64,000 nt of DNA from contig NZ_CP024808.1 in NCBI RefSeq assembly GCF_002787055.1, positions 1,514,328 to 1,578,327 of the forward strand, read 5' to 3'. The notes below the pieces were generated by a model. The model searched no databases and had not been told where the DNA came from. It was given only the letters and a program-made list of their open reading frames with translations. How positions within the stretch are numbered: the first letter of the stretch is position 1; each line of letters starts with the position of its first letter. Below are positions 58,108 through 64,000 of the stretch, one piece after another. The position numbers and the translations under genes were made by a program. Origin of the DNA: Candidatus Nitrosotenuis aquarius (GTDB lineage Archaea > Thermoproteota > Nitrososphaeria > Nitrososphaerales > Nitrosopumilaceae).

Positions 58108-58181
58108 GGGCCCATAACTCAGCTTGGTAGAGTAACCGGCTCATAACCGGTGAGCCAAGGGATCGAAGCCCTTTGGGCCCA
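58108..58181 (+). tRNA. tRNA with CAT anticodon: elongator Met or Ile2; integration target
   Basis: The acceptor GGGCCCA/TGGGCCC, the anticodon stem ACCGG/CCGGT around CTCATAA and the T-arm AAGGG/CCCTT form a complete cloverleaf with no intron and no encoded CCA. It lacks initiator features, so it is either elongator Met or the Ile2 tRNA that TiaS modifies; sequence alone does not decide. Its 3' end is 4 bases from the end of the out-of-frame integrase tail, so it is the likely attachment site of the element that follows. Confidence 0.92.
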
Positions 58182-58184
58182 TCT

Positions 58185-58316
58185 CTACATTACCAGTGGG
58201 CACCTTTTCAGTATGACCTTTCCGTTTGGAAGAGTTCCGACGTATTGCCATCCGTCAGCTATTAGTTGCTCAGACTCGTCTGCCGTTGCGACTCGCTGCT
58301 TGTATTGCCGCCTCTC
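58185..58316 (-). pseudogene. Out-of-frame C-terminal tail of the integrase
   Basis: In the -1 frame relative to the integrase, 43 codons to a TAG at 58185-58187 encode a typical archaeal integrase ending: ADESEQLIADGWQYV then GTLPNGKVILKR. The main frame instead ends in tandem stops (TAATAG) at 58262 after a Ser/Gln-rich stretch with no family likeness. A single-base indel between about 58265 and 58316, or a programmed -1 shift, would join them. The tail ends 4 bases from the tRNA. Confidence 0.75.
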
Positions 58317-59614
58317 AGATCACTAAGAAGCTCTAGCACCCTTGCGAGTTCCTCCGGCCTCATCGTCTCTATCTTTGTCTTTGCATCTTCCTTTTGTTTT
58401 TCCAACGGGTCCTCTGTTGCCTTTTCCAGATCAAGAAACTCCTCGCTTCTCTTGAACGCGTCACGCATTTCGTCTGTCAGGATTTTTGGTAGTATCCCTT
58501 TGTTCGTAGTGTACTTGGATTCAATGCTTCCACGATGTCCCATAAAGAACACACGAAAGTCATGTGCTATCTTTCCCCTCGACTCCGCAATGAGTAGTTG
58601 CGTGTCAAAGTATGCGCGCAGCACATACGGTCTCCATGTGAATCTTGGTCTCATAGCTGTTCTCACGTCGTCCACTATCACCTGTGTCTTGACGAATTTC
58701 TTGCCGATGTTGTTTCCTCGCCATCTAGTCAGCTTGCTTGGTGCAATGACTGGGGACTCTGGACCAAGCGAATCACCGTCCATTATCCTCTGGTTGAGGT
58801 ATGCAAGAAGTCTCTTTCCACCAAGATCTGTGATGAAGGTGAAGTATTCGTGTCGCGCCTTTGATAGTGTTCTTCTGACAACTATCTTTGCCGGGCTTCT
58901 GGTAAAGACTGCGAGTCCCTGAATGATTGCAAGGTCTGGCAAATCCCTGATGGACAGACCGTCACTTGCGTCATAGTTACCAAGAACTTCGGGGCGAAGA
59001 CCTGATTTTCCAATCAGTGCCATTATTGCGCCCTGTCTCATGTTTGCCCTGTTGAACAGTTCTGCAAGCTCGTTTCCCTCTGGAACCCTCTCGTTCTCAA
59101 GAGTTGGTGTGGAGTCGATGTTCTTGATTTTGATCTTTCTTTTGATCTCTACGTCGAAATGACGAAGCCAGGATTTCACGGATGTCAAAAGTCCCTTGAT
59201 GTATTGCGGCGCATTTCCGTTTTCCTCAAGACGCGTTATGTAGTCCTGCAACAAGTCTGTTGCAGTCCTGATGTCCTTCATCCCTAATTCGGCAAACTGC
59301 ATCGGGGTAATGTCGTGGTCTTCAAGGAACTTTCGAAGTCTTCTCAGTCTCACGTCTGCCGTTATCGGGCTTCCACGTGCGACATTTTTGTACCATCTGT
59401 GTACGTCTGGATTGGCAAGAAGTCTCTGTTTTTTGGATATTTTTTGAATTTTGGCAGTGTTGTTCGTTGTTGTGTATGTTGTGTTTTTTCCCATATCGAT
59501 CCCCTCGTCGGGGATTTCATTGGAAATAGAGGGGTCGTCTCCGGTATTTAGCTTTTCTCGGTGTGGACAGTTGACCAAGTCGTTGCTGCTCTTGGATGGA
59601 AAAGGATCTATCAA
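58262..59614 (-). CDS. int: Tyrosine recombinase/integrase
   Basis: 450 residues in the intact frame. An N-terminal helical core-binding (SAM-like) domain spans about 65-160. Catalytic residues are R207 (SGLRPEVLGNY), a Lys in TLSKARHEY, R333 in RPYVLRAYFDTQ (Tyr in place of the usual His of HxxR, as in many archaeal integrases), H360 (MGHRGSIE) and the nucleophile Y368 (SKYTTNKG). It starts at TTG 59614, overlapping the upstream gene by 4 bases; an ATG at 59494 after a GAGGGG sequence is an alternative. The last residues are probably frameshifted. It should integrate the element at the adjacent tRNA gene. Confidence 0.92.
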   Translation of the reverse strand: MIDPFPSKSSNDLVNCPHREKLNTGDDPSISNEIPDEGIDMGKNTTYTTTNNTAKIQKISKKQRLLANPDVHRWYKNVARGSPITADVRLRRLRKFLEDHDITPMQFAELGMKDIRTATDLLQDYITRLEENGNAPQYIKGLLTSVKSWLRHFDVEIKRKIKIKNIDSTPTLENERVPEGNELAELFNRANMRQGAIMALIGKSGLRPEVLGNYDASDGLSIRDLPDLAIIQGLAVFTRSPAKIVVRRTLSKARHEYFTFITDLGGKRLLAYLNQRIMDGDSLGPESPVIAPSKLTRWRGNNIGKKFVKTQVIVDDVRTAMRPRFTWRPYVLRAYFDTQLLIAESRGKIAHDFRVFFMGHRGSIESKYTTNKGILPKILTDEMRDAFKRSEEFLDLEKATEDPLEKQKEDAKTKIETMRPEELARVLELLSDLRGGNTSSESQRQTSLSN

Positions 59615-60357
59615 AGCTCACCATCACCATCGTAAAGACTGTCCCTGCGTTTTCTTTGAGTCATATTATCAAAGGCGGGATCAAGATTGTACTGATCCAC
59701 AATCCTGTCTGTGGCAAGAGTCTCAGAGGGTGTTCCAGAGCCTGAAAATAACTCATCTGCCTTCTTCATCTCGTCTGCTAGGTGCTCAAATTCAGGCATG
59801 CTTTCTCTTACTTCTAGGGTTTCGCTTTTCAGCTCATTCATCTGGTTTCTGATCTTGTCAACCTGTTCAAGGATGTCAGAATGCCATGGCTGGATTGGTT
59901 CATCTAGGAATTCTTTTGTGAACTCCAGTACTGTGGTTTTGTCTTCTGGATTACTTCTTATCTCAAATGAGCGCTGGGCGATGCGGTCAGCCAACTCGCT
60001 TGCCATTTCGTATTTTTCCGCTGAAATCTCTTTGTCGTTATTGAGATTCTTGAGTTTCTCCATTGCATCGTGAAGTATCTTGTCTGAGAACTCGTCTACC
60101 TCCTTTTGTGAGAATCTTGTCTCCTGTTGAATTCTTGGTGCGTTTATCTTGTAGGTATTTGTGTCGGATTCAAAGCTTCTAGACATCCCACTGAGTTCAG
60201 GCTTTTCGAGTTTGTTTCTTATTTTTCTGTCATACTCACTCATTGGAGGGGATGTGTGTCTGTATGCTGCAAGTGGATCCCTCTGTGCCATGTAACCTGA
60301 CTTGTATCCTCCGTATCCGCCGCCAAACCCCTTGGAGTATTTCTTTTTGTAGGACAA
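59611..60357 (-). CDS. Coiled-coil element protein, unknown
   Basis: 248 residues, TTG start. The N-terminus is Gly/Tyr/Lys-rich and probably disordered (KGFGGGYGGYKSGY). The rest is charged and helical, with predicted coiled coils around 80-130 and 165-210. No enzyme motif. It lies one base after the ATPase stop and overlaps the integrase start. It may be a partner of the translocase or a DNA-binding accessory; this is inferred from position only. Confidence 0.7.
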   Translation of the reverse strand: MSYKKKYSKGFGGGYGGYKSGYMAQRDPLAAYRHTSPPMSEYDRKIRNKLEKPELSGMSRSFESDTNTYKINAPRIQQETRFSQKEVDEFSDKILHDAMEKLKNLNNDKEISAEKYEMASELADRIAQRSFEIRSNPEDKTTVLEFTKEFLDEPIQPWHSDILEQVDKIRNQMNELKSETLEVRESMPEFEHLADEMKKADELFSGSGTPSETLATDRIVDQYNLDPAFDNMTQRKRRDSLYDGDGEL

Positions 60358-60358
60358 C

Positions 60359-62578
60359 TTAGTCTGTCACACCATTGTTTCCGCCATCTTTCCGGTTTTG
60401 TTCAGAATCAGGAACGGCAGGGTCTGGACCCTCGATGTTTCCGCTCTTCTCCGGGCCCTTTATTACATCGTCAAGTAACTCCACATAATCCCGAATTAAT
60501 CCAATCCAAATCTTTTCTTTTGGAATGTTTTCCATCCTCTCCAGCTTTGATCTTGCAAACTGGAAAGCCGATTCTTCTCTGTATAGCAGTACCAATTCAT
60601 CCACCTCTCGGTCTGTCAGCACTCTGACCTTGTTCTCAACATCCTTTGTTGAAAGCTCGATTTCCACTGCCTTGCGGTGCCCATTCAATTCCTCGTAGAG
60701 ATCTACCCTTCGACCGTCCTTGAGGTCGTATTCCACTCTGCCGTTCCAGCCCAGTATCTTGTGCTTGACTCTGAGCACATTGAGCCAATAATGATGCTCG
60801 TACCCTGGAACGCCGGAAATCCACTTCCAGTAGCCGATCCTCTGTGCAGGTCTGCCTAGAATCTTCATTATCTCCAAGGCGTTTGGAGTGAGGGAAAAGT
60901 GGATTCTGTCATGGACCTTCACTGGGAATTTCTGTATTCTAATCAGGTTTTTGTCAAGCAGGTCTTGCTTCACCTTGGCAAATTTCCTGTCAGATATTCC
61001 AAGTGCCTCTGTTATCTGCTGCTGGTAGCTCCACTCATGAAAGAACACATAGTCAAGAAGCAACCATCCCTCCTTTGTGAGGTCTGGCAGGTGTACCTCC
61101 TCTGATTTCTTTTCAACCTGAACCATGAACATCCTGCTTTCAATTTCCTGTCGCTTCATGTCAAGTGCAGTAATGAGCGGCCTTGATCTTTGCAGTACCT
61201 CTGCATCTGCTATCAGATCCCCTTTCTTTATGTCAAGAGTCTTTAGAACAAACGGTTTTGTTCTTCCGGCAACTCTTGCAATCCAAGTTCCCTTTTCCAG
61301 TTTTCCGAGTATTTTCTCAGAATCCCTGTCCAATCCAAGCGAAGAGGAAAGATTTCTCTGCTGATCACTTTCAACTATGTTTCCAACAATCATGGTACCG
61401 GCATTGTCCTTGAATGCATCCATCACTAAATGTGGGAACTGAGTTAGTGCAAATGTGCCGAGCATCATCTCGCGGCTCTGGCTGAAAAAAGTAGCAAGTG
61501 GGGGCAAAGACAGCTCTGTAGACACAAGGCTTCTTTCTTGGCCGCTGTACTGTGTAAGGTGAGCTTCGTCCATAATTATTTTACAGAATTTAGACTTAAA
61601 CTCGCTATCTAGAGTAGACTTCCGGTTGAGTCTTATCTGGTTGTAGAGTCTTCGGTAAAACTCGTGCATGATTATGGTCTGGATAAGAAACGATGCCACC
61701 GAGAAATCCAGCGGAAACATCTCGATTATGATTCGTCTTTTGAAAAGTTCCTTGATCTCAAATCCGTGTTTTACGTTGATTACTTTGTCCAGTGCCTGAT
61801 TGATGTTGAATATTCTGTTTTCCGCGATTGCGGAATATTCGTTCTCCTTTCTGCTTTCGCTGTGCTGCGATTTGAGGTGGTTCTCCAGTTCACGGAATGT
61901 CACCTGTCCCTTGTTGTGCTCATACAATTCTTCTAGTGAGCGAAGAATGTGGGCAGGTGTCGCCATCAAGAGGCCCTGTGAGTGTGCTGCGATATCCAAG
62001 ACAACTCTCCACCACAGCTTTATGTCCATGCCTTCTGGACAGTTTGTCAAAACGTTGTATGCAAGCTCGTGCCATCTTATGACGTAAACGTCATCGTATT
62101 TTTTGGCAAGAGTTCTATAGTCCTGCTTCCAGTCAAAGGAAAGAAAGCATATTTCATGTTTGATCAACTGATCAACAAAGTTGAAGACTGTGGTGGTCTT
62201 TCCATGGCCTGACCTGGCAACTACAAATTCATTTTCACGTAGATTTTCACTGGTGAGGCCGAAGGGGTGTAGCACTCTGTCTCCAGAGCAAACATGTCCG
62301 ATGATCACTCCATCACCAATTGCGTCTGCCTTTGACGGAAATGAGAGCAATGGATTCTTTGATCTCATTGAATGTTCATTGAATTTTGTCTCGACCAAAC
62401 TCTTTATCTTGTCAACCAGCTTCTTTCGCCTTCTCTCGTTTGCATACGGCAGCATCCTCAACAGAGTGTCGATGTAGCCTGTGGGGAGTCCTGGAATCTT
62501 TGAGACCTTGTCCATTATCTCCTGTCTGAAATCATCTATCTCAGACAAACTCAAGACTCCTGAATACTTTGATTGCAA
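60359..62578 (-). CDS. HerA/TraG-like DNA translocase fused to winged helix and nuclease-like domain
   Basis: 739 residues. Walker A is ARSGHGKTT (121-129) and Walker B is KIIMDEAHL (333-341), followed by a sensor-like TQFPH; this is a FtsK/HerA-family pump. After the ATPase come a winged-helix region (about 505-570) and a domain (about 590-690) with D626 and E639-I-E641 in RRVDLYEE and AVEIELSTK. That pattern resembles the PD-(D/E)XK-like fold of replication-relaxation proteins. A hydrophilic Pro/Gly/Asn tail ends the chain. The start is uncertain: TTG 62578 overlaps the upstream gene by 38 bases, and ATG 62515 would also keep the ATPase. It probably moves element DNA during transfer. Confidence 0.82.
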   Translation of the reverse strand: MQSKYSGVLSLSEIDDFRQEIMDKVSKIPGLPTGYIDTLLRMLPYANERRRKKLVDKIKSLVETKFNEHSMRSKNPLLSFPSKADAIGDGVIIGHVCSGDRVLHPFGLTSENLRENEFVVARSGHGKTTTVFNFVDQLIKHEICFLSFDWKQDYRTLAKKYDDVYVIRWHELAYNVLTNCPEGMDIKLWWRVVLDIAAHSQGLLMATPAHILRSLEELYEHNKGQVTFRELENHLKSQHSESRKENEYSAIAENRIFNINQALDKVINVKHGFEIKELFKRRIIIEMFPLDFSVASFLIQTIIMHEFYRRLYNQIRLNRKSTLDSEFKSKFCKIIMDEAHLTQYSGQERSLVSTELSLPPLATFFSQSREMMLGTFALTQFPHLVMDAFKDNAGTMIVGNIVESDQQRNLSSSLGLDRDSEKILGKLEKGTWIARVAGRTKPFVLKTLDIKKGDLIADAEVLQRSRPLITALDMKRQEIESRMFMVQVEKKSEEVHLPDLTKEGWLLLDYVFFHEWSYQQQITEALGISDRKFAKVKQDLLDKNLIRIQKFPVKVHDRIHFSLTPNALEIMKILGRPAQRIGYWKWISGVPGYEHHYWLNVLRVKHKILGWNGRVEYDLKDGRRVDLYEELNGHRKAVEIELSTKDVENKVRVLTDREVDELVLLYREESAFQFARSKLERMENIPKEKIWIGLIRDYVELLDDVIKGPEKSGNIEGPDPAVPDSEQNRKDGGNNGVTD

Positions 62579-62774
62579 GAAATGACATTACCATCACAAC
62601 CACTCCAGCTACTGCAAGTTGCAAGTAGACCGACGGAGAGTGCGGTGATAACATGTCGTTGAAGAACAGTATCAGCGCTATCGTAATGATGACTATTCCT
62701 GCACCCACTAAGAGCTTCATAACACTCAGAACGGTGCCGGAACTTCGGTTAGGCCCGCGATACATACTCCTCAA
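62541..62774 (-). CDS. Small protein with two transmembrane helices
   Basis: 77 residues, or about 59 from an inner ATG at 62720. Two hydrophobic segments (about 19-40 and 49-70) form a helical hairpin with short ends. It overlaps the zinc-ribbon gene by up to 26 bases and the translocase by up to 38, a coupled arrangement. It could anchor the translocase at the membrane, as small VirB/TraG partners do, but no homology is recognised. Confidence 0.65.
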   Translation of the reverse strand: MRSMYRGPNRSSGTVLSVMKLLVGAGIVIITIALILFFNDMLSPHSPSVYLQLAVAGVVVMVMSFLAIKVFRSLEFV

Positions 62775-63351
62775 TCCTCCCGTCCAAATCCTTCATGTCG
62801 TCCTTGCCTCCCAGAACCTGAGAATGCGCGTAGAATGCCTCGGTTCCAAGGTCTGTGAGACGCTTGCCTCCGAGAAATGATGTCGTGACATATCCTGAAT
62901 CTCTCAGAAAATCGACAATTCCTTTCATCTCATCCCTTGGTATTCCGGACACCTCGTTCATGTCGCGTTCACCTGTTATGCCGTTTGCAATCATCAGGAT
63001 GATCTTGAACACTTGTCTCGATATCGGATGGGTTTCTCTGAGATCTTGCAGACAGATTATCTCGTTTCTGAAATCAATGGCACAATTCTCGCAAAGTTTC
63101 TTGCCGCATTTTTTGCATAGCGATAGCTGATCAATTTTCCCAAAACAATAATCACACATTGTGATTCGTTTGGTGGTGACTACGCTGTCGTTTACTCTGG
63201 ACACTCGCTCGCTGTCCATCTCTCCCTCTCCAGCAACCTCGGTTCTCTCCTCCGTTATGATTTCGTTGTTTGTTGGCATGTCCTCAAGTCTTTGCAATCG
63301 TAACTCAATCTCGCCGAGCTTTTCCAGAATTCTGTCGGTATCCGATGTCAT
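62749..63351 (-). CDS. Zinc-ribbon and winged-helix protein
   Basis: 200 residues in three parts: a coiled coil (about 5-30), a zinc site with CDYC and CKKCGKKLCENC (about 66-92), and a C-terminal winged helix (about 115-190; ERDMNEVSGIPRDEMKGIV then GYVTTSFLGGKRLTDLG). It fits a DNA-binding regulator or adaptor. Its ATG overlaps the stop of the ThiF-like gene by 4 bases, so the two are translated together. The combination is not one I can name. Confidence 0.75.
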   Translation of the reverse strand: MTSDTDRILEKLGEIELRLQRLEDMPTNNEIITEERTEVAGEGEMDSERVSRVNDSVVTTKRITMCDYCFGKIDQLSLCKKCGKKLCENCAIDFRNEIICLQDLRETHPISRQVFKIILMIANGITGERDMNEVSGIPRDEMKGIVDFLRDSGYVTTSFLGGKRLTDLGTEAFYAHSQVLGGKDDMKDLDGRIEEYVSRA

Positions 63352-64000
63352 CTCCCAAGCCCCCTGATCCTATGTCTTAGTTTTTTTACGAGTCCTTTGG
63401 TGTGTGACTTTCTGATTTCTTTCGTTTTTTCTTCCTCATGTTTGAGCCAATTCTCATAGTTGCATGTGGCGCAGAGGTCTTTCTTTGGGACGTTGAGTTT
63501 CTCTACCCTTAGGTCGTCGTAGTATCTGACAAGATTGAAGATGAACTCTTTTCCAAGTAGGAGCCAAAGCGTCATTTTTACCATCATTGATCCTGGGATG
63601 GTAATGTCAGCAAACATTCCCTGTGCTGCTTTCAGCTCACCCTCTTCTAGGCCGTATTTTCGTCTCAATGTATTTTGGTCGATTGCAGCACTTGTGAGGC
63701 TGAATATGCAGTCAAAGCACGCATGTGAGCCTGATGAGACGCAGAACACGTATGCGCTCTTTGCCCCGGCGTATATCCCACAGTATACTGCTTTCTTGCC
63801 CAGTTCGCAGCAAATGACATTTGTGTGATAGTTCAGTTCCGGGTTTCCAGATGCCGCAACTATGATGTCGCATGATTCTATGATCGAGCGCAACAACTCT
63901 CTATTCTTTATCAGGTCGTCCTCCACCGTCTGCACCACTGCGAGGGGATTGTGTGACTCGATGTGTCTTTTGATTATCTGAGTCTTTGATCTGCCGATAT
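63348..64000 (-). CDS. ThiF/E1-like adenylyltransferase-fold protein, 5' end outside window
   Basis: The frame is open to the window edge. Its first residues, IGRSKTQIIKRHIESHNP, match the helix after the nucleotide loop of ThiF/MoeB/E1 proteins. Then come SCDIIVAASGNPELNYHTN (the usual D-x-x-D loop position) and two zinc pairs, ACFDCIF and LCATCNYENW. A basic tail follows (KGLVKKLRHRIRGLGR). No obvious catalytic Cys appears in the visible part. The Gly-rich ATP loop would lie just outside. As mobile-element cargo it may serve a ubiquitin-like or thiolation system whose other genes lie upstream. Confidence 0.8.
   Translation of the reverse strand, partial: IGRSKTQIIKRHIESHNPLAVVQTVEDDLIKNRELLRSIIESCDIIVAASGNPELNYHTNVICCELGKKAVYCGIYAGAKSAYVFCVSSGSHACFDCIFSLTSAAIDQNTLRRKYGLEEGELKAAQGMFADITIPGSMMVKMTLWLLLGKEFIFNLVRYYDDLRVEKLNVPKKDLCATCNYENWLKHEEEKTKEIRKSHTKGLVKKLRHRIRGLGR

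Follow-up and report, generated by a model that had tools for sequence, protein, structure and literature searches.

Why should a gene of the ubiquitin-activating (E1) fold overlap the genes of a DNA pump beside an integrase? The question is raised by one end of a 64,000-nucleotide (nt) stretch of the genome of the ammonia-oxidising archaeon Candidatus Nitrosotenuis aquarius (contig NZ_CP024808.1, positions 1,514,328 to 1,578,327 of the forward strand), the whole of which is hereafter called the window; the source genome is a single 1.70-Mb contig. From the window edge to a tRNA-Met gene, six genes through the integrase follow one another on the minus strand, overlapping or with near-zero gaps. 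As a tentative answer, in which we place limited confidence, we propose that a reversible conjugation/deconjugation switch, made of a ubiquitin-conjugating (E2)-like protein and a JAB-E1 fusion protein, is coupled to the DNA pump of an integrative element. In this proposal we infer the E2 activity, the conjugation itself, which protein becomes conjugated, and the control of the pump.

The gene row and its conservation

The JAB-E1 gene runs past the end of the window, so that only the part encoding its C terminus (63348-64000, minus strand) lies inside; the complete gene, at genome 1577675-1579009 (window coordinates 63348-64682, minus strand), encodes 444 amino acids (aa). Directly upstream and wholly beyond the window lies the E2-like gene (genome 1578988-1579626, window coordinates 64661-65299; 212 aa), which overlaps the start of JAB-E1 by 22 nt. 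On the other side JAB-E1 overlaps by 4 nt a gene for a 200-aa treble-clef zinc and winged helix-turn-helix (zinc/wHTH) protein (62749-63351), followed on the same strand by those for a 77-aa two-helix membrane protein (62541-62774), a 739-aa HerA/VirB4-type pump ATPase (60359-62578) and a 248-aa coiled-coil-like protein (59611-60357), with which the operon order of six genes ends, and then by that for a 450-aa tyrosine integrase (58262-59614; PHROG integrase, E 1e-4). A preliminary description of the window had reported that an E1-fold gene, taken for a ThiF gene, overlaps the zinc/wHTH, two-helix and pump genes on one strand beside the integrase. These coordinates are confirmed and the E1-fold protein is real, but it is a JAB-E1 fusion and not ThiF alone; the JAB and E2 genes that the description advised seeking to the right of position 64000 are represented by the JAB domain and the E2-like gene just past the edge.

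A scan of our whole genome collection, together with genome searches, recovered the same six-gene order in two further genomes of the Nitrosopumilaceae: in G008:C66, from the same genus, and at locus L057 in genome G295 (contig JAGWFS010000001), from another genus. The order therefore occurs in three genomes of two genera, with 48-63% identity in the most distant pair, and all that we say of it and of orthologues is drawn from these three copies only. At each of the three loci the reading frames either overlap or directly adjoin one another; the integrase of L057 is an unrelated one, next to a tRNA of that locus. The JAB-E1 orthologues share 62-71% identity across 436-444 aa and, because this similarity is accompanied by the same gene order in three genomes, sequence comparison indicates that the conserved row is not due to chance. 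JAB-E1 is full-length in each copy, and since 62-71% of its residues are retained while synonymous changes are saturated, the genes are intact and show the pattern expected under purifying selection. The two outcomes that would have spoken against the preliminary description, a ThiF-like gene that is a lone pseudogene and a gene order not conserved in related elements, are thus both contradicted. Among 400 genomes of the order three carry the E2-like family, as do three among 325 genomes of the class, each time with JAB-E1 beside this pump; as it occurs in no other genome of either set, the E2/JAB-E1 pair is seen only next to the pump.

The conjugation enzymes and their known relatives

In the JAB-E1 protein, Pfam places a Prok-JAB domain at residues 28-138 (E 1.1e-5), N-terminal to a ThiF domain at residues 173-378 (E 1.7e-24). 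The residues of the JAMM metal site (E...HxHx(n)SxxD), namely E35, H97, H99, S108 and D111, are invariant in the three orthologues, as are two zinc cysteine pairs, C322/C325 and C404/C407. The nucleotide-site residues of the E1 half (G186, G188, D210, D212, N218, R221, K233) are invariant in an alignment that includes MoeB-like proteins, other E1s and Cap2 of the cyclic oligonucleotide-based antiphage signalling systems (CBASS). In the E2-like protein C151 (own numbering) is the sole cysteine conserved in the three copies, in the context H-W-Y-x-x-x-x-P-C-Y-I-H-x-W. A model of the full-length protein was poor (pLDDT 55) with mixed structural matches, and its core was afterwards refolded on its own; the core model is of low confidence (pLDDT 57), and its order of helix, four strands, cysteine loop and helix fits the UBC topology. 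The best PDB matches of the core were mostly ubiquitin-conjugating enzymes (Ubc9, Ube2W), with a Foldseek probability of up to 0.87 and a TM-score of about 0.5. The modelled fold suggests that the 212-aa protein is probably an E2.

Several results weigh against the proposed switch, those on the enzymes being collected here and those on the gene row in the next section. Besides the low confidence of the core model, its Foldseek E-values exceed 0.1, the E2-like protein finds no match in Pfam, NCBIfam or PADLOC scans, and its hhalign alignments to single E2 sequences are insignificant, with C151 set on the catalytic cysteine in two of the three. No conserved open reading frame fitting a ubiquitin-like protein (Ubl) occurs around the genes in the three elements, so that the Ubl gene which the preliminary description expected to be sought is not found at the locus, and none of the operon proteins has a C-terminal di-glycine. 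A protein of 134 aa encoded upstream was weighed as a candidate Ubl and discarded, because neither G008:C66 nor L057 conserves it. Finally, none of the three JAB-E1 orthologues has a cysteine between C325 and C404 for an E1 thioester; in an approximate alignment of distant proteins the 'ACG' of Cap2 stands against 'AQG' in JAB-E1, with Gln for the E1 cysteine. Because of this, formation of a thioester on the E1 half itself appears unlikely.

The missing cysteine could also mean that neither JAB-E1 nor E2 is catalytically active and that both are mere scaffolds which hold the pump complex together, as could Gly279, which stands where MoeB and ThiF usually have an Mg-binding Asp. Yet the JAMM and ATP-site residues (G186/G188/D212/R221/K233) and the E2 cysteine are invariant, and we consider dead scaffolds very improbable. 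We considered whether Gly279 proves the E1 to be dead and decided against it, as two CBASS Cap2 proteins carry Gly at the same position. Still more improbable, to the point of being barely credible, is that the pair has nothing to do with conjugation and serves sulfur transfer or peptide modification in the manner of MoeB, ThiF or MccB. The search of solved structures did include MccB, ThiF and MoeB among its matches, and adenylation without a cysteine is MoeB-like, but the combination of a JAB fusion and an adjacent E2-like gene is what marks conjugation-type operons, and no carrier or cofactor genes lie nearby.

Our best reading is an exchangeable and reversible protein-conjugation regulator, which resembles CBASS Cap2/Cap3 in its enzymology and would be coupled to the DNA pump. 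In the switch that we propose, the conjugation module would be translationally coupled to a DNA-handling core composed of the zinc/wHTH adaptor, the two-helix protein, the pump and the coiled-coil protein. The E1 half would adenylate the C terminus of a partner, much as Cap2 acts on its cGAS/DncV-like nucleotidyltransferase (CD-NTase); this partner may be one of the element's own proteins or a Ubl whose gene lies at another locus. C151 of the E2 would accept the acyl group straight from the adenylate, with no E1 cysteine, and the E2 would attach the acyl cargo to a component of the pump or adaptor or to another target, whilst the JAB half would remove the conjugate. Presentation of the target DNA or complex may fall to the treble-clef/wHTH protein. 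The outcome would be a pump that is turned on or off, to serve either the island's own transfer or maintenance or an action against foreign DNA. Were this the case, an archaeal route from E1 to E2 without an E1 cysteine would be added to those known; the operon is small enough for direct testing in vitro.

How does this row relate to conjugation systems already described? JAB-E1 fusions with E2-like partners have been reported in bacteria (Iyer 2006, row 6e; PMC1779556). The 6e operons likewise have JAB fused N-terminal to E1 and, in some cases, a separate E2-fold protein and a treble-clef-like zinc protein; unlike the present row they have a Ub-like gene and an E2-like protein without cysteine, whereas here no Ubl was found, the cysteine is invariant and the genes of the pair are coupled to that of a HerA pump. 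CBASS type II, with Cap2 (E1-E2) and Cap3 (JAB), shares the E1, E2 and JAB domains and the Gly in the Mg-site motif. Cap2 functions without a dedicated Ubl. In contrast to CBASS, JAB is here fused to E1, the E2 is separate, Gln replaces the E1 cysteine, and no CD-NTase or effector was recognised; specifically, no nucleotidyltransferase was recognised among the operon genes of the three elements. The Bil system (BilABCD) also has E1, E2 and JAB, but as four separate genes with a Ubl, whereas here JAB and E1 are fused and no Ubl was found; PADLOC Bil models lead at another locus of the same island, about 31 kb away, and not at JAB-E1. To our knowledge, no pump or integrase is associated with the conjugation cascade of Caldiarchaeum subterraneum. 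That archaeal cascade (PMC5654768), compared here by description only, has a JAMM protease and a RING E3 besides E1 and E2 and, unlike the present row, possesses a ubiquitin gene. In a search of plasmids only E1 matches were obtained, at about 22-28% identity. CBASS Cap2 is among the closest of these plasmid-borne sequences: of three matches inspected, the two from Agrobacterium are Cap2 proteins encoded in CBASS operons, and the third, a haloarchaeal ThiF, has a SAVED gene next to it. Viral contigs, searched with JAB-E1 and the pump as single proteins and as alignments, held no relatives of either. As we looked for and did not find a CD-NTase, a Ubl or a four-gene layout of the Bil kind, the gene content indicates that the row belongs to none of CBASS, Bil and the multi-ubiquitin (6e) operons, and we found no described system that combines E1, HerA and zinc/wHTH genes in this arrangement, as the preliminary description had supposed.

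The pump block and its exchangeable slot

The zinc/wHTH protein has a binuclear treble-clef-like pattern (CxxC...CxxC-x4-CxxC...CxxC) whose cysteine pairs, together with the wHTH, are conserved in seven elements; its Pfam matches (FYVE/B-box/RING, wHTH) are only weak. The motor of the pump resembles HerA and, weakly, the DNA-translocating CedD (DUF87, E 2.7e-5, over the Pfam cut-off; PADLOC HerA, 1.4e-7; CedD, 5e-4 across residues 93-436). Its Walker A and B residues (G126/K127 and E338) are invariant in the seven elements, as are D626, E630 and E641 of a nuclease-like motif (D626-x-x-x-E630...E641) that lies with a wHTH at the C terminus, a motif by which the pump may carry a C-terminal nuclease. 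The two-helix protein is kept beside HerA in the window's own element, G008:C66, G008:C48, L057 and G009, and the coiled-coil protein follows HerA in the first four of these and in G085. As for transfer genes, the HerA/CedD-like ATPase and the two-helix protein are seen, no search having been aimed at VirB6 or pilin genes. The close pump family comprises seven elements in six of 250 genomes of the taxonomic family, with a more distant relative in G092, and in its unrooted tree the three carriers of E2/JAB-E1 group together (support 0.88). In G008:C66, G085, G092 and G009 this pump is accompanied by a homologue of the integrase; L057 and G008:C48 have an integrase of another family in its place.

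Upstream of the zinc/wHTH gene lies a position, here termed the slot, whose content differs among these elements. Four to five others have the pump core without E1 or E2. In G008:C48 the slot is occupied by small proteins together with an AAA ATPase (PADLOC TRIP13, E 2.8e-44; IetA, 1.3e-38; by plain similarity also Cdc48), and in G085, G009, G023 and, weakly, G092 it holds a protein of about 200 aa from one family, mostly with a small membrane protein. A 120-aa protein of G008:C48 was compared with HORMA proteins and gave no match. The pairing of E1 with a HerA translocase and zinc/wHTH adaptor, to which the preliminary description drew attention, therefore stands as adjacency within this element and is not obligatory, since same-family HerA elements hold other genes in the slot. 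Moreover, between the window's element and G008:C66 synonymous divergence (dS) is 0.4-0.65 in the pump block and saturated in E2 and JAB-E1, with 2.8 in the integrase and about 1.5 in two neighbouring genes, and nucleotide identity falls near the junction of the zinc/wHTH gene and JAB-E1 from 83-90% to 59-81%, mostly 60-75%. This contrast in dS and the step in identity indicate that the pump block and the conjugation pair recombine as separate modules, even though they lie in overlapping frames. Both the variable slot and this modularity count among the points against the switch.

They are also what would be expected if E2/JAB-E1 were independent anti-virus defence cargo, Ubl-free and CBASS- or Bil-like, which occupies the exchangeable slot without acting on the pump; the Bil-like operon on the same island fits such cargo too. 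Against this main rival, which we consider somewhat unlikely, the pair overlaps the pump genes in all three copies, was found nowhere else and has no recognisable effector of its own. In CBASS, E1-E2/JAB (type II) and HORMA/TRIP13 (type III) are alternative regulators, and because CBASS exchanges these two kinds we read the slot as one for regulators. The same correspondence favours a HerA core that is itself a nuclease/pump defence system, with the E2/JAB-E1 or AAA module as its sensors or switches, as do the nuclease-like motif and a weak match to a HerA defence model. We judge this quite unlikely, as the defence matches are weak and the core lies by the integrase in most elements, with the integrase abutting a tRNA in five, as expected of transfer or maintenance functions. 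A broader form of the switch that we prefer would be a class of archaeal integrative elements in which interchangeable regulators (E1/E2/JAB or an AAA remodeller, as in CBASS) license a membrane-anchored HerA pump, the cysteine-less E1 handing its cargo to E2 and an element protein being conjugated instead of ubiquitin; we consider this scheme unlikely. If true, it would make ubiquitin-like conjugation and AAA remodelling general plug-in switches for both nucleotide-signalling immunity and the DNA pumps of mobile elements.

The tRNA-Met island

Integrated elements that target tRNA genes have been described in Nitrosotenuis and its relatives by Krupovic et al. 2019 (PMC6563490), whose main text does not mention ThiF, JAB or ubiquitin genes. 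In the window the integration target is a tRNA-Met (CAT) at 58108-58181 on the plus strand (ARAGORN), and synteny with relatives ends exactly at its 3' end. The core of the left attachment site (attL), CCTTTGGGCCCA (12 bp, the tRNA 3' end), lies at 58170-58181 on the plus strand and has exact copies at genome 1630496 and 1631467; 0.002 such 12-bp repeats are expected in 70 kb. In the relative G015 the site is empty, and the tRNA-Met is joined directly to DNA matching that from about 1631479 onwards here, 59 kb away. Because of this empty site and the repeats, the window's right edge lies inside an island of about 59 kb integrated at the tRNA-Met. An integrase and attachment repeats at a tRNA, as in integrative conjugative elements, are thus both present, and the HerA core adjoins the integrase at the island's left end. 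Searches for attachment sites within 60 kb had given no right end, which was later located by the empty-site comparison. The two copies there, about 1 kb apart (genome 1630496-1631478), suggest tandem integration or an excision remnant.

A TrmB gene had been considered as the right end and was dropped, since the island runs about 59 kb. A TrmB-type regulator (L005:13215-13577) lies on the far side of five elements, and the roughly 250 bp upstream of it are unusually conserved, possibly as a regulatory or transfer-origin site.

The island also holds the Bil-like operon (genome 1610175-1612860, L007:176-2861), which encodes an E1 (BilD, E 9e-12; Bil E1 in the PDB, 1.8e-6), a JAB protein (BilC, 9e-7), a YukD-like Ubl and, at the place where an E2 would stand, a protein of 118 aa. 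Near it lies a second HerA ATPase (L007:6632-8473, genome 1616631-1618472) with an N-terminal zinc ribbon and a possible C-terminal nuclease, whose relative in G008:C48 adjoins a Ubl operon. That operon (L049:1870-6502) is 6e-like, with a Ubl-like protein of 80 aa, an E2-like protein, a JAB-ThiF protein and two possible TIR-type proteins; it adjoins a CARF protein and the end of a second HerA ATPase of G008:C48, and may be a defence system. Further along the island, by a second integrase and an Orc1/Cdc6-like gene, is a putative AbiEii/AbiEi-like toxin-antitoxin pair, recognised by eye (L007:8532-10157). Three elements share a pair of genes on the opposite strand, for proteins of about 145 aa and 381-443 aa, some of them with an HExxH-like motif (L049:15437-17006, L051:11864-13574, L052:15197-16941), and the first gene of the pair recurs in a longer form in L057.

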